A DNA stretch of 61,217 bases from contig PMUI01000085.1 of the NCBI GenBank assembly GCA_003166955.1, positions 1 to 61,217 of the forward strand, read 5' to 3'. Origin of the DNA: Acidobacterium sp. (GTDB taxonomy: Bacteria > Acidobacteriota > Terriglobia > Terriglobales > Acidobacteriaceae). The number at the start of each line of letters is the position of its first letter. The first letter of the stretch is position 1. Under the pieces are notes generated by a model. It did no database searches, had not been told where the DNA came from, and worked only from the letters and a program-made list of their open reading frames with translations. This document shows, one piece after another, positions 6,559-24,675 of the stretch. Position numbers and translations under genes: made by a program.

Positions 6559-9500
6559 GTTCGCATCCGTGCTCGCCACTGCCGTCCCCAGGCTCGTATG
6601 CGTCAGATCCCCACCGCCATAGGCGTCCGCTGTATTCGACACCGAGGTCGGCGAATTCGTCGGCACAGTCACGGTCAGCGCCAGCGTCGTAAACGACGAC
6701 CCTCCCGCCACCCCCTGCGTCGACGTGCACGTCACCGTTCCTGTCCCCGAACAGCTCCAGCCCGCGCCGGTGTAGTTAAACAGCGTATAGCCCGCCGGCA
6801 GGGTGTCGCTCACCGTGACCGTGCCGGTAGTCATGCTGGCCGCCGCCGCCGTATTGCTCACCGTGATGTCCCACACTGCCGTCGATCCCTGCGTGAACGT
6901 CCCCGTATGCGTCTTCGTCACCGACAACACCGGCGCCGGATCGACATTGATCGTGTCGCTGCCCGAGTTGTTGCTCACTCCGCCGCCGCTCACCAGTACC
7001 GCATTGTTGAAGCTCGACGGCGCAGAGCCCGCCACGTTAACGTCGATGGTCAGGGTCGGATAGCTCGCGCTTTGTGCCACGTCGCTGTTGTTCGTGCACG
7101 TTACCACCGGCCCACTCGCCGAACACGACCACCCCGTCCCCGAGAAACTCGCATAGGTCAGCGGAGTGTTCAGCAAGTCGGTTACCGTCAGCGGATGCGC
7201 GCCGTCCGGATCGCCCGTCGAGCCTGTTCCGTTGTTCGTAATAGCCGCAGTAATCTGCGCGCCCTGCTCGCCCTGCACAAAGTTGCCGCTGTGCCCATCG
7301 CCATCGTGGCCCGCCGTCACGGTCACCGTCACCGGTGTATAGGTCAGGTTCATGCACCACGTCGCCGGATTCAGCGCACCCTCGTGCGTGTTCTGGTTGA
7401 AGTAGAGGCTCCAGACGCCGTTGCCGTCCGTTCCCTGATACACCCCGCCGCCTGTCCCCGAAACATACGTCCCGGTGCTGAACGTGAAGCCGCCCTCGTC
7501 GGTCGCGCGCTGCACCGTCCCCGGCAACGTGTAGAACGAACTCGCCGTGTACGACGAGATGCCGTTACTGGTCGGCCCCACCTGGGAGCCCAGCGAGTAG
7601 TTGGAACCCAGCGTCGCCGGGATCGTCGCCGCCCCGTCCACAAACGTCACCGTCTCATTGACCGGTTGCACGTAACTGGAATCGGTAGACGTGATCGGCG
7701 AGAAGAAGTCCAGCGTCTGGCGCGTGGTCGGCGCCGATCCGCCATTCGGACCGACCAGCAGCGTCGCGATAGCGCCCGGGACCTCAAGGTCCAGATTCTT
7801 CAGGGTCACACTGGCCGCTGCCACCATCCCCGGCAGACTGCTCACGACAACATTGGACGGGTTCGGTTCCGCAGGCCCGATGTCGTTGATCCCCGCGCCG
7901 CCCGGTATCGTGATACCCGAGGTGTTGCAATAGCTCCATGTCGTGCCGCTCAGCGTCGGAGTAGCCGTCGCCGCATCCACGCGGAAATTCTCCGTCCCAT
8001 TGTTGTCGTCGAACGAGCCCCCGCTGTCGGTGTACGCCGCCGTGATCGTCTGGTCACCCTCGGGCAACGTGCTGGTCGAAACGCTCGCCTGCCCGCCGGA
8101 AACCGCAACCGATCCCAGCGACGTAATCCCACCCGTCACCTTGTTCGCAACGCTGAACGCAACCAAGCCCTCATTCACCGTGCCCGTGCTCGTGACCGTA
8201 GCGGTGAACGTGATTGGGCTGCCTTTGGTCGCATACGTCGTCGGCGTCGTCGTCACGCTCACCGTCGTCGCCGACCCGGTCGCCGGTGTAATGTCGATGC
8301 ACCATCCGGTGAGCGTGGTGTTGAAACTCGAGCCCGACTCGTTCGCCAGGAACAGCGACCATGGCCCGTTCGCCGTCGCTCCCGTGAACGAACTCAGGAA
8401 CGTCGCAGTTCCCTGCGTCGGCGCAATTCCGAAGCTTCCCGGAATCTGTGGACTCGGCGCGGGGTTGTCCGGCAGTAACTCGCTGAACGTGTCGAACACC
8501 GACGGGCCATACGTTCCCGGCGAAAGCGCAGGACCCACAAACGCGCTCGGCATCAGCGTCGCGTTATCCTCGATGGTGTAGTTCCCCGTCGAACTCGTCG
8601 CTCCCACACCCGTGAAGCCCCAGAACTCGTAAGCGTGCGTCCCGTCAGGAGCCACCAGCAGCATCTCCATGTCATTGGTATTCCCGCTCGACAGGCTCTG
8701 CAGCGTCACCGACACCGTTTCCACCGCGTTGTTGATCGACGGGCTGCCCGAGGTGCCATCGCCCACGTAAATCACCGAAGGATACGGCGCTGTGGGGCTG
8801 TTTCCATCCGCCGCGATCCCGTTCTCGTTGCAATACGTCGTCCCGCTGCTCGTCGCGTGGTTGTAGACAAAGACGCCGGCGCTGCCCGAGCTCGATTCGT
8901 ACGTGCCGTCCCCGGAGTAACTCGCCGTGTAGGAGTGATAGCCTTCCGAAGAATTACTCCCATAGGTGATCGAGCACGTCGCCTGACCCCCGCTCAGTGT
9001 CGCCGGATTCCCCCCCGAGCATGTCAGATTCGTAGCACCTTCCTTGAAGGTCACCGTCCCCGTCGCGCCAGAAGTCACCGTTGCCGTCAGCGTCTCCGTG
9101 TCGTTCGGGGACGTCGCAAACGGACCACTCGGATTGGGGCTCAGCGTCGTCGTGCTCGGCGTGGAAGCCCCCGAATAAGTAATTGTGACGGACCACGAAG
9201 CAAAACTCACGCTGGTGTAAAACGAGTCGTCACTCACCAGATACAGGTTCCAGGTCTCGCCATTCACCGGCGCGCCCGTAAACACGGCGAAGGTGCTTAC
9301 AGGAACGGTTGTGTTCGGCGGGAAGGCGTCGCTCGGCCCTGTTCTGCTGCCTCCCACCAGCGTCGGAACGTTGAGGCCCGTGCCCGGTACGGAAAGCGTC
9401 GTAAGGTTGCTGCCGATCATCCCAGCCAGCGCCGAGAGCGAGTTGTAGTTCGGCTCCGTCTCCACGTCATCGAACGTCCCGTAGTCGGCAATCGCGTAGG

Positions 9501-16569: not shown

Positions 16570-16878
16570 ATGCGGAAACTGCAATATGCACTCATGGCGC
16601 TGGCCGCGCTGTTCATGGCGTCCCCGGCGTTCGCACAAGCAACGGGTGGTGGTGCTGCCACACCCAGCTGGGTGCCGATCGGCGCCGGCATCGGAATGGC
16701 CATTGCCTCCGGCCTCTGTGGTCTCGGACAGGGCCGCGCAACCGCTTCAGCCACCGAAGCTCTCGCCCGTAACCCCGGTGCTCGCGCCGGCATTTTGACC
16801 ATGCTGATGCTGGGCCTTGCCTTCATGGAATCGCTGGCCCTCTTCACCCTGGTCATTATCATTGTCAAGGTGAAGTAG
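16570..16878 (+). CDS. atpE: F0F1 ATP synthase subunit c with signal-like N-terminus
   Basis: The 102-residue rotor subunit is longer than the usual 70-90 because of an N-terminal MRKLQYALMALAALFMASPA-FAQ leader resembling a cleavable signal peptide. The hairpin is normal: helix 1 with GLCGLGQGRA, polar loop ALARNPGARA, helix 2 with AFMESLALFTLVI carrying the ion-binding Glu at residue 87. Gln54 and Ser88 match positions used by Na+-type c-rings, but the next residue is Leu rather than Thr, so proton use seems more likely (inference). CAGGAG precedes the ATG by 8 nt. Last gene of this partial operon, followed by a strong terminator. Confidence 0.93.
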   Translation: MRKLQYALMALAALFMASPAFAQATGGGAATPSWVPIGAGIGMAIASGLCGLGQGRATASATEALARNPGARAGILTMLMLGLAFMESLALFTLVIIIVKVK

Positions 16879-16947: not shown

Positions 16948-17385
16948 TTACTGCTGGAGAGTCTTGAGGTAATTCGTCAGATTCGCGAGCCTCTGGTGCT
17001 CTTCCATCTCAGGCGATGGACTGCCTTTGTCGAGCGATCGAAGCGCAGGACCCCATATCGGCATGTCCTTCGAGCCATGAGCTGTTGTTTCCATCCCGAA
17101 CTGCAGGACGGAATAAATGTGAGCGTCGGGAAACTTTCCGCCGTTGTCCCTGGCAAGCTGCGCCAGGTTTGTCGGACGTTCCTTCAGGGCCGCAGCGGCC
17201 GGTCCGCTCCCCTTACCGTCCACTCCGTGGCAAACGGCGCAGTAGGTGGAGTACATCTGTTTCCCGGATGCGGGCGAGGTGGACTTCATTGGAACTTCTT
17301 TGATGACTGGTACTGTCTGGGCTATCCCGAAAGCGGCGGTGGCAAGAAGCCCCGCCACGAATGCGACGTGGATTCGATTCGGCAT
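16948..17385 (-). CDS. Exported class I cytochrome c
   Basis: The 145-residue protein starts at 17385 (MPNRIHVAFVAGLLATAAFG), giving a signal peptide ending near IAQ; a longer frame from 17463 lacks one. A single haem site CAVCH sits at residues 49-53, and the probable axial Met is in KDMPIWG near residue 108. The spacing and NYLKTLQQ ending fit small cytochrome c / cbb3-type CccA-like electron carriers in the periplasm. Separate unit convergent with the ATP synthase genes; it may carry electrons to a terminal oxidase not in this window. Confidence 0.9.
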   Translation of the reverse strand: MPNRIHVAFVAGLLATAAFGIAQTVPVIKEVPMKSTSPASGKQMYSTYCAVCHGVDGKGSGPAAAALKERPTNLAQLARDNGGKFPDAHIYSVLQFGMETTAHGSKDMPIWGPALRSLDKGSPSPEMEEHQRLANLTNYLKTLQQ

Positions 17386-17842: not shown

Positions 17843-20800
17843 ATGAGGATTTCTTTGTCGGGCATCGTCTCCGGACTAGCCCTCGTTCTTCTTCTCGCTT
17901 CTTTAACCCTCCACGGCCAGACCTTCCGTGGCGGCATCAACGGCACCGTCACCGACCCATCCGGCGCAGTGGTTCCCGCCGCCGATGTCGAAGCCGCGAA
18001 CGCCGCCACCGGCGTTTCTTATAAGACCGTCAGCTCCAGCGCCGGTGAATTTCAGTTCCAGGATCTCCCGCTGGGTGCCTACGTTGTCACCGTCGCCAAA
18101 GCCGGCTTCAAAGTCGAAAAGGTTGAGAACGTTCCCGTCTCGGCTGGCACTATCTACACCCTGCCGGTGAAGCTGAGCATCACCTCCACCGCCCAGACCA
18201 TCGAAGTGTCGGCCAACGAGCTCGCCCTCGACACCACCTCCACCACTCAAACCACCGTGCTGGGCAGCGCGCCGCTCCAGGACACTCCGCTCAACGGCCG
18301 CGACTTCACGCAGCTAATCATTCTCGCGCCTGGCTTCGCCAATTCCGGCGCGGGCGGCTACGGCTCTCTGAACGGCACTCGCGCCAATCAAATCAATTGG
18401 CAGATTGACGGCATCGACAACAACGACCTCTGGCACAACATCCCCGCCGTCAACCAGGGCGGCGTCTCCGGCATCGCCGGCATCGTCCTGCCCATTGACG
18501 CTGTCGATCAGTTCTCTTCACAAACGCAGGCAGCTCCGGAGTCGGGACGCAATCCAGGCGGCAGCGTGAACCTCTCGTTGAAGGCCGGCACCAACGCCTT
18601 GCACGGCAGCCTCTACTACTACGACCGCAACGAATTCTTTGGCGCCACCAACCCCTTCACCGCCCCTGTCAAGCAGGAAGTCCGCAACTACAACTACGGC
18701 TATTCCGCAGGCGGCCCGCTCATCAAGGACAAGCTCTTCTGGTTCACGACCTTTGAGCATCAACGGTTCGTCATCGGAGTTCCGGACCAGTCCACGCAAC
18801 CCTCCGCCGCCTGGCAGGCCGCCGCGAAGACTGTCCTCGCCAACCACGGCGTCGCCGTCAACACCGTCTCCGCCAACCTGCTCAAGACCCTCTGGCCTTC
18901 CACCGCCACCGGCGCCCTCGCGCCAGACGGCAACAGCATCGCTCAGAAAGATTTCACCTCCACCGATCCCGAGTACGGCTACAGCTACAACGGTCTCGCC
19001 AAGATCGACTACAACATTAACGAGAAAAACAGCCTCCAGGCTCACTGGTTTGTCGGCCAGGGCAATCAGGTTGCGCCCGTCGGTTCCTCGCTCAAGTGGT
19101 ACTACGAGGTCGCTCCCATTCACGTCCAGAATTACGCCCTCGTCTTCAACCACGTCTTCGCGCCCACCATCACCAACCAACTGCTCGCCGGCGTCAACTA
19201 CTTCAACCAGGTCTTCAACGACTTCAACAACGGCTTCGACACCGCCAGCCTCGGCCTCGTCACCGGCTCCAGCCTGCCCGGCGCTCCCAATATTCAGATC
19301 ACCGGCTTCGATCCCGTCGGCGAGACGCCTCCCGAGGGCCGCAACGACATCACCGGCCACCTCACCGAAGATCTTGCCTGGACCGTCGGCAGGCACCAGT
19401 TCAAATTCGGTGGCGAGTTTCGCCAGGCGCAGCTCGACGAGTTCTACCACCGCCACGCCCTCGGCAGCTTCACCTTTGACGGTTCGCAGGGTCCCGGTGG
19501 AACCGGGGATGCGTGGGGTGGCATCGCCGCCTACAGCGCGACCAACGGCCCCCTCGTCAACTCCCTCGCCGATTTCCTCGCCGGCGACGTCAAGACTTCG
19601 TCAATTGCCCTCGGCGATCCTGACCGCCAGGTCTTCGTGAATACCTTCGACGTCTTCGGCCAGGATTCCTGGCAGCTCACGTCAAAGCTCAACGTCAACT
19701 ATGGCCTTCGTTGGGACTACGAAGGCCCGCTTCACAATTCCCAGAAGGACCTCTCCGTCTTCCGGCCCAGCCTTGGCGGCGTCGTCTATCAGGGAGCGCA
19801 GATCAGCACCCTCTACGATCCGACCTACCTGAACTTTAGCCCGCGCCTCGGCCTCTCATACCAGGCTACGCCGAAGACCGTCGTCCGCGCAGGCGGCGGC
19901 CTCTACTTCGATACGCCGAACCTCAACCCCTTTCTTGATAATCGTCCCGGAAACAGCGCGCCCAACGGCGTAGAGGGCAACCCAGGAGGCCCTGATCCCG
20001 TCACCACCGCGACGGCCGGTGGCTACACCATCAAGAGCGGAGTCGACCCCTTCACTTCATCGACGCCTTCGAACAGCATCTATTCCATTGCGAAGAATTT
20101 CGTTCCTTCGCACAACATGAACTACAACCTGCAGCTCGAGCAGAGCATTTCCAACAACGTCGTCGCTCAACTCGGCTACGTTGGCAGCGAAGGACGGCAC
20201 CTGCTGTCGATTCTCGATATCAATCAGGCCGCGCCCGGCGTCTATGCTTCCGAAGCGCAGCAGAACGCCACGCGTCCCTTCTATGCGCAGTTTCCTCAAT
20301 ACACCTTCATCAACGAGGTCCGTAGCATCGGCACCTCGAACTACAACGCGCTGCAGGCGACATTGCGCGTCTCCAACATGCACGGATTCACCGCCCAGGC
20401 CGCTTATACCTGGTCGCACAGCTTCGATGAAGTTACGGCTTACCGCGGCGCTCTTCCGCAGGACAGCACGAACTTCAAGGGCGACTATGGTAACAGCGAC
20501 TTCAACATGCACAACATCTTCGTTGGGGCGATCACCTACGACATTCCTGGAGCTTCCCACTGGAAAGGTCTGACAAACAGCTGGCAATTGAATAGCCTGC
20601 TGACGTTCCACGGCGGGCTACCCTTCTCGGTGTACAGCTCCAGCGATACATCGGGAACGGATGATGAGAACCAGCGTGCCGACGTTGTTGCGGGCGTCGA
20701 TCCGTATCAGGGCGGCCGGCAGGAAAAGGTCGGCGGCGTTTGGCTGAATCAGAACGCCTTTGTCGACGCTGCGCCAGGAACCTGGGGCGACTCGCGCCGC

Positions 20801-21076
20801 AACGCCTATTACGGTCCCGGCGTGAGCGACGTCGACTTCTCCGTCTTCAAGAACAACCACATCGGCGAGCGCATCACCACGCAATTCCGCGTAGAGATGT
20901 TCAACCTCTTCAACCGCACCAACTACGCGCCGCCGCTGACGGGCAACTTTAACCCGTCGTACACCTACGACAACACGCTGACGCTGTTCACCACCATCGG
21001 CAGCTTTAACGGCGCTCCCGGAATAGGCGCGGGCGAGCCATTCAATACCCAACTGGCTCTCAAAATTTTGTTTTAG
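17843..21076 (+). CDS. TonB-dependent receptor, Oar/CarboxypepD_reg type
   Basis: This 1,077-residue outer-membrane protein has a signal peptide (SGLALVLLLASLTLHGQ), then a carboxypeptidase regulatory-like fold at roughly residues 28-115 (GGINGTVTDPSGAVVPAADV, LPLGAYVVTVAKAGF). A plug-like region follows (PLNGRDFTQLIILAPG, NQINWQIDGIDNNDLWHNIP), then a long Tyr/Asn-rich beta-barrel with QDSWQLTSKLNVNYGLRWDY and terminal LALKILF. TonB-dependent receptors of this group are abundant in Acidobacteriota and are thought to import glycans, peptides or other large solutes; substrate unknown. GGAGGTCGT precedes the ATG. It is a single gene with its own terminator, placed upstream of the exported amine oxidase operon, which hints at nitrogenous substrates (weak inference). 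Confidence 0.93.
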   Translation: MRISLSGIVSGLALVLLLASLTLHGQTFRGGINGTVTDPSGAVVPAADVEAANAATGVSYKTVSSSAGEFQFQDLPLGAYVVTVAKAGFKVEKVENVPVSAGTIYTLPVKLSITSTAQTIEVSANELALDTTSTTQTTVLGSAPLQDTPLNGRDFTQLIILAPGFANSGAGGYGSLNGTRANQINWQIDGIDNNDLWHNIPAVNQGGVSGIAGIVLPIDAVDQFSSQTQAAPESGRNPGGSVNLSLKAGTNALHGSLYYYDRNEFFGATNPFTAPVKQEVRNYNYGYSAGGPLIKDKLFWFTTFEHQRFVIGVPDQSTQPSAAWQAAAKTVLANHGVAVNTVSANLLKTLWPSTATGALAPDGNSIAQKDFTSTDPEYGYSYNGLAKIDYNINEKNSLQAHWFVGQGNQVAPVGSSLKWYYEVAPIHVQNYALVFNHVFAPTITNQLLAGVNYFNQVFNDFNNGFDTASLGLVTGSSLPGAPNIQITGFDPVGETPPEGRNDITGHLTEDLAWTVGRHQFKFGGEFRQAQLDEFYHRHALGSFTFDGSQGPGGTGDAWGGIAAYSATNGPLVNSLADFLAGDVKTSSIALGDPDRQVFVNTFDVFGQDSWQLTSKLNVNYGLRWDYEGPLHNSQKDLSVFRPSLGGVVYQGAQISTLYDPTYLNFSPRLGLSYQATPKTVVRAGGGLYFDTPNLNPFLDNRPGNSAPNGVEGNPGGPDPVTTATAGGYTIKSGVDPFTSSTPSNSIYSIAKNFVPSHNMNYNLQLEQSISNNVVAQLGYVGSEGRHLLSILDINQAAPGVYASEAQQNATRPFYAQFPQYTFINEVRSIGTSNYNALQATLRVSNMHGFTAQAAYTWSHSFDEVTAYRGALPQDSTNFKGDYGNSDFNMHNIFVGAITYDIPGASHWKGLTNSWQLNSLLTFHGGLPFSVYSSSDTSGTDDENQRADVVAGVDPYQGGRQEKVGGVWLNQNAFVDAAPGTWGDSRRNAYYGPGVSDVDFSVFKNNHIGERITTQFRVEMFNLFNRTNYAPPLTGNFNPSYTYDNTLTLFTTIGSFNGAPGIGAGEPFNTQLALKILF

Positions 21077-21085
21077 CCTCCCTGA

Positions 21086-21124
21086 AGCCCGTGGTTCTTG
21101 TCTCCGGCCACGGGCCTTTTTTTT
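21086..21124 (+). terminator. Rho-independent terminator after the TonB receptor
   Basis: GCCCGTGG (21087-21094) pairs with CCACGGGC (21108-21115), followed by a run of eight T from 21117. It lies 10 bp after the receptor stop codon. Confidence 0.85.
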
Positions 21125-21187: not shown

Positions 21188-22762
21188 ATGGGTCTCACCA
21201 GACGCCAGTTTCTGATGCGCGTGGGCCAGGCCGGCGGTTACAGCGCCGCCTTCGTCATGATGCAATCGCTCGGTCTGCTTGCGATTCCGGAAGCTTCAGC
21301 GGAATCGAACAAGCTCCGGCTCGTGAACGGAAAAGGAACTCACGTCGTTATTCTCGGCGCCGGCATCGCAGGCCTGGTCGCGGCGTATGAATTGACCAAA
21401 GCCGGCTGGTCCTGTACCCTCCTTGAGGCTCGCGAGCGATGCGGCGGCCGCAACTGGACGATCCGCGGCGGCTCAGACGTAGAGTTCACGAGTGGTGTCC
21501 GCCAATCCTGCAGCTTCGACGAAGGCAACTACTTCAATGCCGGACCGGCACGTCTTCCTTCGATTCACCACACCATGCTTGGCTATTGCCAGGAGCTGGG
21601 CGTAGCGCTCGAGGTGGAAGTCAACTCCTCGCGCGGGGCGCTGATGCAGTGCGACAAACTGAATGGTGGCGCTCCGGTCACCGAGCGGCGCGCTGTCAAC
21701 GACACGCGCGGCCACGTTTCCGAACTGCTCGCCAAATGCATTCGCAAAGGCGCTCTCGACGAGGAGATCACCGCCGAAGACCGCGAGCGCATGATCGCCT
21801 TCCTCAAGCAGTATGGCGATCTGAAAGACGACCTTTCCTTCAAGGGTACGGAACGATCCGGCTACAAAGTCGACCCCGGAGCCGGAAAGGCGATGCCCGA
21901 AGCCCTCGATCCTCTGCCGATGCACGCGTTGCTGGATGCGGACCTGTGGCAGGGCATGCTGGCCGAGGAAGTGATCGACTGGCAGCCGACGATGTTTCAA
22001 CCCATCGGCGGCATGGATCGCATTCCCGCTGCGTTCGAGAAAAAGCTCGGCAGCGTGTTACGGTCTGGAGCGGTCGTTCGCAGCATTCGCCAGTCGGCAT
22101 CCGGCGTCACGGTCGTCTATCGCGATCGCGCCAGCGGCACGGACCAAACGATCCAGGCCGACTACTGCATCTGCGCCATGCCGCTGACGATTGTTCGCAC
22201 GCTGGACGCCGATTTCAGTCCTGCGGTCCGGGAAACCATCGACAGCACCAGTTACGACTCGGCCTACAAAGTTGCCTGGGAAGCGCCGCGATTCTGGGAG
22301 AAAGAGAACGGCATCTACGGCGGTCTCTCCTATTTGCAACAGACCGTGAACGTGGTGTGGTACCCGAGTGCGCGGCTGTTTTCGGATCGCGGGATCGTTG
22401 TCAGCGGCTACTCCATCGAGAACGGAACGGCGTTTGGCAAACTTCCCGACATCGACGCCAAGCTTGCGGCGTCGCGACAGGCGATTGAGCTTCTGCATCC
22501 GGGGCACGGCAAGGACCTGTCAAAGCCGGTCTACATCAGCTGGGGCCAGATTCCCTACAACCTGGGATCGTGGATCAGCGGATTCGGCCACGCAGGGCAG
22601 GGCTCGCTCGATGTTCTGCTCAGTCCGGACCGTCGCGTGTACTTTGCGGGCGATCACACGAGCCACCTCGTGGCCTGGCAAGAAGGGGCAGCGCTGTCGG
22701 CCTATAGAGTCATCAACCAGCTGGGGGCGCGGATCGAGAATGGAGGCAACCTTGCTTCGTAA
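21188..22762 (+). CDS. Tat-exported flavin amine oxidase
   Basis: The 524-residue flavoenzyme starts at 21188 (MGLTRRQFLMRVGQAGGYSA), a twin-arginine signal with the RRQFL motif; the ATG at 21098 would put 30 residues before it. A dinucleotide-binding motif VVILGAGIAGLVAAYELTKA, then EARERCGGR, and a C-terminal RVYFAGDHTSHLVAWQEGAA give the flavin monoamine oxidase / L-amino acid oxidase fold. The family oxidises an amine or amino acid to an imine with release of H2O2. It is the first gene of a three-gene operon: its end overlaps the RidA-like gene by 23 bp. Exported as a folded FAD protein, it would act in the periplasm. Substrate unknown. Confidence 0.88.
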   Translation: MGLTRRQFLMRVGQAGGYSAAFVMMQSLGLLAIPEASAESNKLRLVNGKGTHVVILGAGIAGLVAAYELTKAGWSCTLLEARERCGGRNWTIRGGSDVEFTSGVRQSCSFDEGNYFNAGPARLPSIHHTMLGYCQELGVALEVEVNSSRGALMQCDKLNGGAPVTERRAVNDTRGHVSELLAKCIRKGALDEEITAEDRERMIAFLKQYGDLKDDLSFKGTERSGYKVDPGAGKAMPEALDPLPMHALLDADLWQGMLAEEVIDWQPTMFQPIGGMDRIPAAFEKKLGSVLRSGAVVRSIRQSASGVTVVYRDRASGTDQTIQADYCICAMPLTIVRTLDADFSPAVRETIDSTSYDSAYKVAWEAPRFWEKENGIYGGLSYLQQTVNVVWYPSARLFSDRGIVVSGYSIENGTAFGKLPDIDAKLAASRQAIELLHPGHGKDLSKPVYISWGQIPYNLGSWISGFGHAGQGSLDVLLSPDRRVYFAGDHTSHLVAWQEGAALSAYRVINQLGARIENGGNLAS

Positions 22763-23261
22763 GCGAATGGCCATCGCAATGCTGGCTGCTCTCATGAGCG
22801 GCGCGGGCGCAATTGCCGCTGCGCAGAACACCGTCACCCGCATTCCGCTGCCGAATTCCAACTTTCCTATCTCCGAGGGCGTTTGGGTTGGGGAAACCCT
22901 GTATTTGAGCGGGATGCTCGATTCCTCGGTGGCAAAGAGCACGCCGGGCGATACCGAAACGCAGACGGTTCACACCCTGGATGCGATCAAGAAGGCGCTG
23001 GAGGAACAGCACCTTTCGATGGGTGACGTGGTGCTGATGCACGTCTACCTCGCGGGCGATCCGGCTCAGGGTGGCAAGATGGATTTCGCCGGATTTATGA
23101 AGGGCTACACCCAATATTTTGGTACAAACGATCAACCCAATAAACCGGCGCGCAGCGCCATGCAGGTGGCGGCGCTTGCACTCCCAGGCGCTCTGGTGGA
23201 AATCGAAGTCACAGCGGTCAGCGGTCATCGTAATCAGGCACGCGCTCATTTGGGCAAGTAA
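22740..23261 (+). CDS. Exported RidA/YjgF-family protein
   Basis: The 173-residue protein has a Sec-type leader (KRMAIAMLAALMSGAGAIAA-AQ) followed by a RidA fold. The fold shows NFPISEGVWVGETLYLSGML near the N-terminus, TLDAIKKALEEQHLSMGDVV in the middle and ALALPGALVEIEVTAVSGHR at the C-terminus. RidA proteins hydrolyse reactive enamines/imines produced by PLP enzymes and amino acid oxidases, and are normally cytoplasmic; an exported version is unusual. The usual catalytic Arg before the last strand is not obvious: the local context is KPARSAMQVAALALPGALVE, where the R of PARSA could serve. The start at 22740 overlaps the amine oxidase; 22767 is an alternative that keeps the leader. Confidence 0.82.
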   Translation: MEATLLRKRMAIAMLAALMSGAGAIAAAQNTVTRIPLPNSNFPISEGVWVGETLYLSGMLDSSVAKSTPGDTETQTVHTLDAIKKALEEQHLSMGDVVLMHVYLAGDPAQGGKMDFAGFMKGYTQYFGTNDQPNKPARSAMQVAALALPGALVEIEVTAVSGHRNQARAHLGK

Positions 23262-23295
23262 AGGGACCCCCGATTTCAAAATTCAGGAGGCGCTG

Positions 23296-24516
23296 ATGAA
23301 CACGAATCTCTCTCGCCGCACCTTCTTCGGATTAGCCGCCGCCGCAACGGCCGCGGCTGCCGTGCCGATTCTGACTGAGCCGCAATTGGCGCTCGCACAG
23401 CGTCGACGCATTGCCCGCGATTACGCTCCCGGAGCGGTGCGCATCGACGCCAACGAGAATCCGCTGGGGCCTTGTAGCGGCGCGTGCGCGGTGATGAGCA
23501 GCTTGTTGCCGGAAGGCGGCCGCTACGATTTCGAGCTGACGCAGAAACTGGTCGACGCCTTCGCCGGGATCGAGGGGCTGAAGTCCGAATACGTGCTGCC
23601 GTATGCCGGATCGAGCGAGCCTCTGCACTATTCGGTGCTGGCATTCACGTCGAAGGATCGCAGTTATGTGACGGCGGATCCGGGCTATGAGGCGGGCATG
23701 TACGCGGCGAAGGTGAGCGGGGCAAACATCGTCAAGGTTCCACTGGCGAAGGACTATTCGCACGACGTGAAGGCGATGATTGCTGCCGATCCGAATGCCG
23801 GTGTGTTCTACATCTGCAATCCGAACAATCCGACGGGGACGATCACGAGCCGGACCGACATCGAGTGGGCGCTGGCGAACAAGCCGAAGGGTTCGATCCT
23901 GCTGGTGGATGAGGCGTACATTCACTTTTCTGACGCCACGCCGTCGATCGATCTGGTGAAGGCGGACAAGGACCTGATCGTGCTGCGGACGTTTTCAAAG
24001 ATCTACGGCATGGCCGGGCTGCGCTGCGGGTTCGCGATCGGGCGGCCGGATCTGCTGGCGAAGATCCAGACCTACGGGATGAACTCGATGCCGATTCTGG
24101 CGGTGGCGGCGGCGACCAGCAGTCTGCAGGTTCCGGAGCTGGTGCCGGAGCGGCGAAAGATCAACACCGACATTCGCAACGACACATTCTCGTGGCTGAC
24201 GGCGAACAACTACAAGTTCATTCCCTCGCAGACCAACTGCTTCATGGTCGATACCGGGCGGCCGGGAAAGGATGTGATCGCGGCGATGGCGGCGAAGAAC
24301 GTCTTCATCGGGCGGGTCTGGCCGGTTTGGCCGACTTATGTCCGGATCACGGTGGGAACGCGGAGCGAGATGGAGAAGTTCCAGCAGGCGTGGAAGGAAG
24401 TGATGAGCGCGCCGGCTTCGGCGTCGGAGCCAACTCGGCGGGCGTCGCCTACGCTGGCTCGACTGGGCGCTCGGGATTTGCCGCCCGGGATGCAGCGGGA
24501 GGAGTTCCTTTCCTGA
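23296..24516 (+). CDS. Tat-exported PLP aminotransferase, HisC-like fold
   Basis: The 406-residue protein starts at 23296 after a perfect AGGAGG. The leader MNTNLSRRTFFGLAAAATAA is a twin-arginine signal. The class I/II aminotransferase core follows: DANENPLGP, PYAGSSEPLH, CNPNNPTGT, LLVDEAYIHF and the Schiff-base Lys (about K235) in TFSKIYGMAGLRCGFAIG, with the phosphate-binding Arg in the same segment. The closest fold is histidinol-phosphate aminotransferase, but the export signal and neighbours argue against histidine synthesis. A 35-residue Pro/Ala/Arg-rich tail follows the last fold element (VRITVGTRSEMEKFQQAWKE). Last gene of the exported trio; a hairpin follows. Confidence 0.88.
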   Translation: MNTNLSRRTFFGLAAAATAAAAVPILTEPQLALAQRRRIARDYAPGAVRIDANENPLGPCSGACAVMSSLLPEGGRYDFELTQKLVDAFAGIEGLKSEYVLPYAGSSEPLHYSVLAFTSKDRSYVTADPGYEAGMYAAKVSGANIVKVPLAKDYSHDVKAMIAADPNAGVFYICNPNNPTGTITSRTDIEWALANKPKGSILLVDEAYIHFSDATPSIDLVKADKDLIVLRTFSKIYGMAGLRCGFAIGRPDLLAKIQTYGMNSMPILAVAAATSSLQVPELVPERRKINTDIRNDTFSWLTANNYKFIPSQTNCFMVDTGRPGKDVIAAMAAKNVFIGRVWPVWPTYVRITVGTRSEMEKFQQAWKEVMSAPASASEPTRRASPTLARLGARDLPPGMQREEFLS

Positions 24517-24575: not shown

Positions 24576-24675
24576 TAAGTATTTGATTCCATGGATGCGG
24601 GCCGATTTTTGTCGGCCCGCATCCATTTGAAAACAGGATTGTTTGCGGGCAAACAAATGTGGAATCAGATACTTA
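24576..24675 (+). repeat. Nested palindrome with strong terminator hairpin
   Basis: An inner stem ATGGATGCGGGCCGA (24591-24605) pairs perfectly with TCGGCCCGCATCCAT (24612-24626), a likely terminator for the aminotransferase operon. It is enclosed by outer arms TAAGTATTTGATTCCA (24576-24591) and TGGAATCAGATACTTA (24660-24675), one mismatch. Related TTTGATTCCA fragments recur to about 24750. The remaining 24760-25236 sequence holds only open frames without start signals or family likeness; I see no gene there. Confidence 0.75.

Follow-up and report, generated by a model that had tools for sequence, protein, structure and literature searches.

Three adjacent genes with export leaders in Acidobacterium: a conserved oxidase-Rid pair and a linked, optional aminotransferase

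Introduction

Transamination is usually regarded as a cytoplasmic process. In a 61,217-nucleotide contig of the soil bacterium Acidobacterium sp. (GenBank assembly GCA_003166955.1, contig PMUI01000085.1; hereafter, the window), a gene for an aminotransferase (AT) with a Tat-type leader follows genes for an L-amino-acid-oxidase-like flavoenzyme (OX) and a Rid protein (Rid), both with leaders of their own. The locus raises the question of whether amino acids are deaminated outside the cytoplasm and whether AT takes part. On balance, we favor a reading in which the trio forms a periplasmic amino acid deamination module that includes AT.

Gene layout and junctions

The features of the locus, all on the forward strand, are as follows.

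21188 to 22762, + strand: OX, L-amino-acid-oxidase-like flavoenzyme with an export leader (Pfam, 2jae match, R122)
21188 to 21301, + strand: Tat-type leader of OX, TRRQFL, with a probable cut after ASA (residue 38; cut placed by eye)
22742 to 22746, + strand: ribosome-binding site GGAGG of the Rid gene, within the 3' end of OX (by inspection)
22752 to 23261, + strand: predicted exported Rid3-type imine deaminase (Ribonuc_L-PSP, closest solved Rid chains, conserved start)
22752 to 22823, + strand: Sec-type leader of Rid (conserved hydrophobic stretch; cut placed by eye)
23285 to 23290, + strand: ribosome-binding site AGGAGG of AT (read from the sequence)
23296 to 24516, + strand: AT, predicted exported PLP aminotransferase of subfamily PRK09105 (NCBIfam NF006580; K235)
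23296 to 23397, + strand: Tat-type leader of AT, SRRTFF, with a probable cut after ALA (residue 34; cut placed by eye)

The three open genes run in the order OX, Rid, and AT (21188 to 22762, about 22752 to 23261, and 23296 to 24516) and matched Pfam Amino_oxidase (1.9e-39), Ribonuc_L-PSP (1.6e-19), and Aminotran_1_2 (5e-34), respectively. The initial annotation had described three consecutive genes with export leaders, which the ORFs, the Pfam matches, and the leader motifs bear out at the level of sequence; the AGGAGG that it placed before the third gene is present at 23285 to 23290, and CAGGAGGC was found upstream of AT in 5/5 relatives compared. The 23-bp overlap that it gave for OX and Rid assumes a start at ATG 22740. 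This codon was present in only 4/11 loci compared, while position 22752 was a start codon in 11/11 (8 TTG, 2 GTG, and 1 ATG), and GGAGG, which lies five nucleotides 5' of 22752, preceded the Rid gene in all 11. Because the 22752 start codon is so conserved, TTG 22752 is most likely the start of Rid, and the predicted overlap is 11 bp. A simple sigma-70 scan detected no consensus promoter.

An oxidase of the L-amino acid oxidase kind paired with a Rid3-type protein

The flavin amine oxidase domain (PF01593) spans residues 60 to 508 of OX, i.e., the mature protein. The best solved chain was the Rhodococcus-type entry 2jae, R. opacus L-amino acid oxidase (LAAO; 3.9e-88, residues 49 to 516), and the second best was an ancestral LAAO (3e-32); 5ttj, which we take to be NicA2, was a weak match (2.7e-10). 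A polyamine or putrescine oxidase identity was rejected, as putrescine oxidase scored 7.4e-12 versus 3.9e-88 for LAAO. Judged by these matches, OX is LAAO-like and not a general amine or polyamine oxidase; the initial annotation had called it an amine oxidase. R122 of OX aligned with the GATRIP arginine of 2jae and was conserved in 67/67 rows (residue counts were taken from 67 of 68 rows). The substrate-carboxylate residues of 2jae-type LAAOs are presumably Arg84 and Tyr371; the arginine corresponds to R122 in the alignment, and Y408 of OX, aligned with the LAAO tyrosine by manual count, was Y in 39 rows, F in 27, and a gap in 1 (n = 67). A structure prediction for OX from seven rows was too poor for use (mean pLDDT, 46).

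The closest solved chains to Rid were PSPTO3006 (4.2e-29) and PFL1385 (1.5e-27), which are Rid3 proteins from pseudomonads; Rid3 proteins deaminate imines produced by L-amino acid oxidase (PMC5619798). Rid3 is described as keeping the catalytic Arg and Glu of the family, with Ile in place of the RidA active-site Tyr (PMC4433059). The putative catalytic residues of Rid, equated with this Arg and Glu by reading of the alignments, were conserved in 58/59 rows (R138) and 54/59 rows (E156), and I44, an Ile where RidA has Tyr, was invariant in 6/6 rows. The match to Escherichia coli YjgF (1qu9) runs from residue 37 of Rid and residue 10 of YjgF; if gapless, it places I44 at residue 17, which we take to be the RidA active-site tyrosine (Tyr17).

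Among 399 genomes of the class, 41/57 Rid sites lay directly downstream of OX, all on the OX strand and with gaps of -14 to 168 bp. The remaining 16/57 had no OX within 1 kb, which we counted against the preferred explanation. In the best 30 Rid loci, examined with 1.5-kb flanks, OX matched at >500 bits in 26/30 and AT was present in 7/30; L073 had a weak 31-bit OX match, and L077, L084, and L089 had none. The pair is thus strongly conserved, and the proposal of a leader-bearing imine producer followed by a leader-bearing imine hydrolase, as predicted from these families, gains from that conservation. Also counted against the preferred explanation were the 33/65 oxidases in the tree (the window plus 64/68 OX loci) with no linked Rid, AT, or cytochrome c, some of them on short contigs. 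A peptidase M19 gene stood beside OX or OX-Rid in 7/68 loci, many of which stop at contig ends, and beside Rid in 2/30 Rid loci, one of which, assigned by Pfam, was the source of the query. Four of these peptidases had a leader-like N terminus by eye. The M19 neighbors were counted in favor of the preferred explanation.

We consider it likely, with good confidence, that L-amino acids are deaminated by OX and Rid in an extracytoplasmic compartment. The initial annotation regarded an exported module of this kind as unusual; exported LAAO-Rid pairs have already been published (PMC5053998, PMC10805672), and what appears to be new is the partnership with AT. As in the lao-cccA-ridA operon of Gluconacetobacter diazotrophicus, where a Tat-leader LAAO gene and a ridA gene share one operon (PMC5053998), the window carries codirectional genes for a Tat-leader LAAO-like enzyme and a Rid protein. 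The G. diazotrophicus LAAO was modeled on R. opacus LAAO, and a periplasmic location was proposed (PMC5053998). That cluster has a cytochrome c gene, whereas OX and Rid overlap with none between them, and the window has AT, whereas the available text of PMC5053998 mentions no aminotransferase for lao-cccA-ridA. In Chlamydomonas, the extracellular L-amino acid oxidase LAO1 and the RidA protein LAO2, which is placed in the periplasm, likewise produce oxo acids and ammonium extracellularly, although the organism is a eukaryote and the available text of PMC10805672 mentions no exported aminotransferase.

Electron acceptor of the oxidase

The acceptor of OX would be either O2 or an unlinked cytochrome c. 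One candidate for the latter lies in the window.

16948 to 17385, - strand: cytochrome c with a leader (Pfam Cytochrom_C)

We regard it as possible, if tentatively so, that OX is a cytochrome-c-reducing dehydrogenase that passes electrons to the respiratory chain via a periplasmic cytochrome c encoded elsewhere, such as this one. In a sister clade from Pseudomonadota and Gemmatimonadota, whose 12 OX loci form one clade on the OX tree, a gene with a cytochrome c motif and a leader-like start lay directly 3' of OX in 11/12 loci; a motif scan found no cytochrome c near OX in the twelfth, L159. Among flavoprotein amine oxidoreductases, a Tat leader together with an adjacent CytC gene predicts a dehydrogenase, in a protein set built around NicA2 (PMC12224317). 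Of the Tat proteins tested there that lack a neighboring CytC gene, most reacted well with O2, with one exception (PMC12224317). OX resembles NicA2/CycN and related dehydrogenases as a Tat-leader flavoprotein of the amine oxidoreductase superfamily; dehydrogenases of the NicA2 kind use an operon-encoded cytochrome c (PMC12224317) and combine a Tat leader with a neighboring gene for a Sec-leader CytC, whereas OX has the Tat leader but no adjacent CytC. The nearest cytochrome c found to OX is the gene above, 4 kb off and on the opposite strand, and within the genus its position tracks atpE, even in L053, where OX is missing. A role as dedicated partner of OX is therefore unsupported, although the protein is a possible electron acceptor. 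Dehydrogenase activity would be a variant of the preferred explanation and would leave its other steps unaffected.

Linkage and identity of the aminotransferase

AT scored 532 bits against NCBIfam NF006580 (cutoff, 444), and its PLP lysine, K235, was present in 16/16 rows. The second-best NCBIfam match was the PtaA equivalog model NF051461, at 419 bits and below its cutoff of 500. The best subfamily name reveals no substrate, which was counted against the preferred explanation. In the class sample, AT lay within 2.2 kb of OX in 12/57 OX genomes, for which nearly all AT candidates were scored, versus about 0.15 expected; thus, chance clustering near OX was rejected. The linked genes occurred in two orientations, mostly convergent. 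In the near sample, five of whose genomes are the same contigs as L092 to L095 and L112, AT was codirectional with OX in 6/9 OX genomes. On the AT tree, linked copies clustered (4 label changes versus a shuffled mean of 9.9), with near-copies contributing.

These observations bear on whether AT is instead a separate tailoring transaminase, comparable to PtaA and its siderophore side chain, that is kept near OX-Rid incidentally. PtaA of pseudomonads, like AT, is a Tat-leader PLP transaminase, and it works in the periplasm on the pyoverdine side chain (PMC6206403); AT falls below the PtaA cutoff and lies beside an LAAO. The 419 bits from the PtaA model speak for a tailoring role, as does the wider distribution of AT, which was found in at least 164/399 genomes (E <= 1e-90) versus 57 for OX (E <= 1e-100), in class searches that scored at most eight, three, and four first-look candidates per genome and may have missed copies. 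So does the sister genome G011 (85% complete), in which AT occupied the same site without OX and Rid and no OX was found at E <= 1e-60; AT standing alone there was counted against the preferred explanation. An incidental association fits poorly with adjacency that recurs in two orientations, with the codirectional arrangement in the near sample, and with the clustering of linked copies on the tree. We rate a separate tailoring role as rather unlikely and give somewhat better than even credence to AT acting in the same pathway as OX and Rid.

Membership of AT in the trio, as first suggested, thus holds in part: AT is linked to the pair beyond chance yet optional, being within 2.2 kb of only 11/41 OX-Rid pairs in the class sample. 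The 30/41 pairs with no AT in that range were counted against the preferred explanation. Scattering of the three genes in relatives had been named as grounds for doubt; they are scattered in part of the relatives and together in the rest.

The upstream receptor and the fate of the products

Two further features precede OX.

17843 to 21076, + strand: outer-membrane TonB-type receptor (Pfam CarboxypepD_reg and OMP_b-brl_4)
21087 to 21124, + strand: intrinsic-terminator-like hairpin followed by T8, between the receptor and OX

The initial annotation placed a TonB receptor immediately upstream. The receptor is indeed the neighboring gene, ending at 21076, but the hairpin (-17.7 kcal/mol; z = -2.83) intervenes. 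A hairpin with T8 also separates the receptor from OX in L092, L094, L095, and L112. The simple terminator scan, whose four terminator-like sites equaled the shuffled mean of 4.0, missed the hairpin at 21087 to 21124, because the loop exceeds the limit of the scan. Because this conserved terminator separates the receptor from OX, the receptor was rejected as the first gene of the operon for the genus; the two are associated but probably belong to separate transcripts. A receptor homolog was directly upstream of OX in 11/68 loci. The receptor differs between sister genomes, and none was matched in the stretch of G006 examined (L045 and L093).

Oxo acids bind iron. The module may serve to release products (oxo acids such as indole pyruvate for auxin, iron-binding oxo acids, or H2O2) and not to feed the cell, a reading that we think unlikely. 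A receptor homolog within 5 kb of OX in 19/68 loci would suit such a role, and there is precedent for it: Gluconacetobacter requires the related lao-cccA-ridA cluster to make indole acetic acid, and transposon insertions in lao there lower cccA and ridA transcripts and abolish indole acetic acid formation from tryptophan (PMC5053998); LAO1 is needed for algal auxin (PMC10805672). However, the receptor belongs to the CarboxypepD_reg/OMP_b-brl_4 type, gave no Pfam match to Plug at E <= 0.001, stands behind a terminator, and varies among sister genomes, and the three genes include no decarboxylase-like gene.

Export leaders

Both Tat-type motifs are rare by chance: TRRQFL arose in 15/100,000 random 40-mers of the composition of OX, and SRRTFF in 21/100,000 of that of AT. 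Among the OX loci, RRx[FLVIM] was present in 67/68 and the strict form [ST]RRxF in 65/68. The sole RRx[FLVIM] miss was L112, in which an ambiguous base interrupts the gene and only its C-terminal piece was scored. The motif [ST]RRxF was present in 16/16 OX-linked AT rows, with a weak 50-bit match in L131 set aside. A hydrophobic stretch preceded the Rid core in 29/29 and 30/30 rows of two samples that share two rows. On its own, the hydrophobicity of the window Rid leader was unexceptional (reached by 1,069/20,000 random draws), and the hydrophobicity of a single leader was rejected as proof of export because 5 to 11% of random draws match it; the argument for the Rid leader hence rests on conservation. 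A TatC gene was found in the genome. Export is predicted here from sequence alone, so the leaders might be decorative and the proteins cytoplasmic; given leader features in 67/68 OX, 59/59 Rid (two duplicates), and 16/16 linked AT rows, with the rows being related, and given the TatC gene, we consider this very improbable.

Proposed deamination module

In the preferred explanation, OX would fold with FAD, exit via Tat, and oxidize L-amino acids to imino acids. Before these could react with their neighbors, the co-exported Rid3 protein would hydrolyze them to ammonium and 2-oxo acids. AT, folded with PLP and exported via Tat, would catalyze amino-group exchange among these amino and oxo acids, likewise outside the cytoplasm. 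Of the possible roles of AT, the likeliest is that it takes the oxo acids from OX and Rid as amino acceptors, which would drain amino compounds beyond the reach of OX by way of those within it; we put this use of the oxo acids, and the direction of AT that it implies, forward as a tentative suggestion. A full periplasmic transdeamination cycle, in which AT would transfer amino groups from a range of amino compounds to oxo acids while OX and Rid oxidize the amino acids so formed, regenerate the oxo-acid acceptor, and release ammonium, is more doubtful still. If true, the cycle would furnish an acceptor whose availability to periplasmic transaminases is otherwise taken for granted.

As far as excerpts from the open-licence PMC literature extend, the union of an exported transaminase with LAAO and Rid was not found. 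The OX-Rid pairing is known elsewhere, and the new element appears to be the recruited exported aminotransferase. A review describes the periplasmic reactions of PtaA and PvdN as surprising and, in its available text, leaves PLP regeneration there open (PMC6206403). A Tat-leader transaminase beside an exported generator of oxo acids offers a concrete, testable answer to how PLP is regenerated in the periplasm. The LAAO-Rid pair is now extended to Acidobacteriota, whose cells could thereby gain nitrogen from amino acids or peptides without importing them.

Gene organization and predicted export

In the window, part of a 5.4-Mb genome (G000), genes for a receptor and three enzymes are flanked by ATP synthase genes on one side and nuo genes on the other. 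The enzymes are an L-amino-acid-oxidase-like flavoenzyme (OX), a Rid3-type imine deaminase (Rid), and a PLP aminotransferase (AT).

17843-21076: TonB-type outer-membrane receptor, just before the trio
21188-22762, plus strand: OX, flavin amine oxidase (Pfam/NCBIfam)
About 22752-23261, plus strand: Rid, Rid protein (Pfam/NCBIfam)
23296-24516, plus strand: AT, class I/II aminotransferase, subfamily PRK09105 (Pfam/NCBIfam)

Leaders are predicted on all three proteins, in agreement with the initial annotation. The Tat-type motifs TRRQFL (OX) and SRRTFF (AT) arose by chance in 15 and 21 of 100,000 random draws, respectively, and are conserved in 67/68 OX rows and 16/16 rows of OX-linked AT copies. 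Taken alone, the hydrophobicity of the window Rid leader was not exceptional relative to random draws; a hydrophobic leader was present in 29/29 and 30/30 Rid rows of two samples with 2 rows in common. TatC is encoded in the genome.

The annotation had also proposed that OX and Rid are coupled by a 23-bp overlap. The genes do overlap, but likely by 11 bp, because Rid most likely starts at TTG 22752 rather than ATG 22740. The former lies 5 bases past GGAGG, with TTG, GTG, or ATG there in 11/11 loci; the latter was found in 4/11. Similarly, the receptor does lie upstream of the trio as claimed, but a hairpin with T8, kept in four further loci (L092, L094, L112, and L095), intervenes before OX. 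The transcription unit is thus probably OX-Rid-AT only. A perfect 15-bp inverted repeat (6-nt spacer) occurs 3' of AT (24591-24626). By eye, the ATP synthase c subunit gene (16570-16878) seemingly has a signal-peptide-like N-terminal extension.

Among solved structures, OX is nearest to the R. opacus L-amino-acid oxidase (LAAO), with an Arg aligned to an LAAO Arg kept in 67/67 rows; the predicted OX structure (mean pLDDT, 46) was too poor for use. Rid is closest to two solved Rid proteins assigned to Rid3 in PMC5619798, and its Arg, Glu, and Ile pattern matches the Rid3 description in PMC4433059. The PLP lysine of AT is kept in 16/16 rows, and AT scores under the PtaA equivalog cutoff (NCBIfam). 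AT proteins of this genus end in a C-terminal extension bearing the conserved pattern LA-LG-RDLPP (window 24415-24513), which is absent from the other genera aligned. One near-genome AT (L094, genome G002, 6616-7758) is chimera-like, its first half near the window AT and its second like another HisC-type enzyme, which may reflect misassembly or recombination.

Conservation of the trio and its receptor

With a separate E-value threshold for each gene, OX, Rid, and AT were retrieved from 9, 7, and 23 of 61 near genomes. Rid adjoins OX in 7/7 cases, and codirectional OX-Rid-AT occurs in six genomes (G000, G002, G005, G006, G008, and G010). Across 399 genomes of the class, OX, Rid, and AT were present in 57, 45, and 164; of 57 Rid sites, 41 are immediately 3' of OX. 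Of the 57 OX genomes, 12 carry AT no more than 2.2 kb from OX (11 of these 12 convergent with OX), against a chance expectation of about 0.15 pairs; in a thirteenth, the distance is 3.7 kb. No AT was found within 2.2 kb for 30 of the 41 OX-Rid pairs. At the same chromosomal site in G011 (L053, 877-3008), a cytochrome c gene precedes AT, with no match to receptor, OX, or Rid. These last two results count against a tight trio: OX and Rid form a conserved pair, with AT linked to it but optional.

The nearest named relatives of the window OX are in Acidobacteriaceae MAGs. Among 68 OX loci from named records, Rid accompanies OX in at least 29 and AT in at least 9; these are lower bounds, since contig ends truncate many of the loci. 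On the OX tree, 33/65 oxidases had no linked partner, which also counts against a tight trio. Three sphingomonad oxidases (L123, L136, and L139) fall within the acidobacterial clade, suggestive of interphylum transfer.

A receptor homologue occurs within 5 kb of OX in 19/68 loci (on the OX strand in 18/19) and directly 5' of it in 11/68. The window receptor shares 49 to 51% identity with those of sister genomes (L092, L094, L112, and L095), which are 81 to 85% identical among themselves, whereas the corresponding OX proteins are 81 to 90% identical to the window OX. The same place beside the trio seems to be occupied by a different receptor in the window.

Electron acceptor

A cytochrome c-motif gene lies 3' of OX in 11/12 loci of one OX clade, namely those of Collimonas, Caulobacter, Duganella, Pseudoduganella, Massilia, Pseudaquidulcibacter, a Hyphomonadaceae MAG, and one of two Gemmatimonadota loci; Rid comes next in 9/12. 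These 12 oxidases form a single branch, separate from the acidobacterial copies. According to PMC12224317, a Tat protein with an adjacent CytC is a dehydrogenase, while most tested Tat proteins lacking one react with O2, with one exception. As no cytochrome c gene follows OX in the window, we lean toward an oxidase rather than a dehydrogenase. In an acidobacterial MAG (L111, 5308-10551), OX comes after a gene whose product combines cytochrome c with NHL repeats (Pfam); the gene before that one looks, by eye, like a PQQ dehydrogenase gene.

Precedents and proposed pathway

Exported LAAO with RidA is already known from Gluconacetobacter (export predicted; PMC5053998) and Chlamydomonas (PMC10805672), and a 2015 paper (PMC4433059) described Rid genes clustering with those for amine oxidases. 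Exported transaminases, PtaA and PvdN, are likewise described in PMC6206403. We did not find an exported transaminase combined with exported LAAO and Rid in a literature search of open-licence PMC papers; the pair and the transaminases are known separately, and their union is apparently new.

L-Amino acids would perhaps be supplied by M19 dipeptidases, whose genes adjoin 7/68 loci (the Pfam assignment comes from one Rid locus). OX would convert them to imino acids, and Rid would hydrolyze these to oxo acids and ammonium; the basis for both steps is the family membership of the two proteins, together with publications on Rid3 paired with an amino-acid oxidase (PMC5619798) and on the lao cluster (PMC5053998). 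From gene linkage, we infer that AT may act on the same pool, shuttling amino groups between its amino acids and oxo acids.
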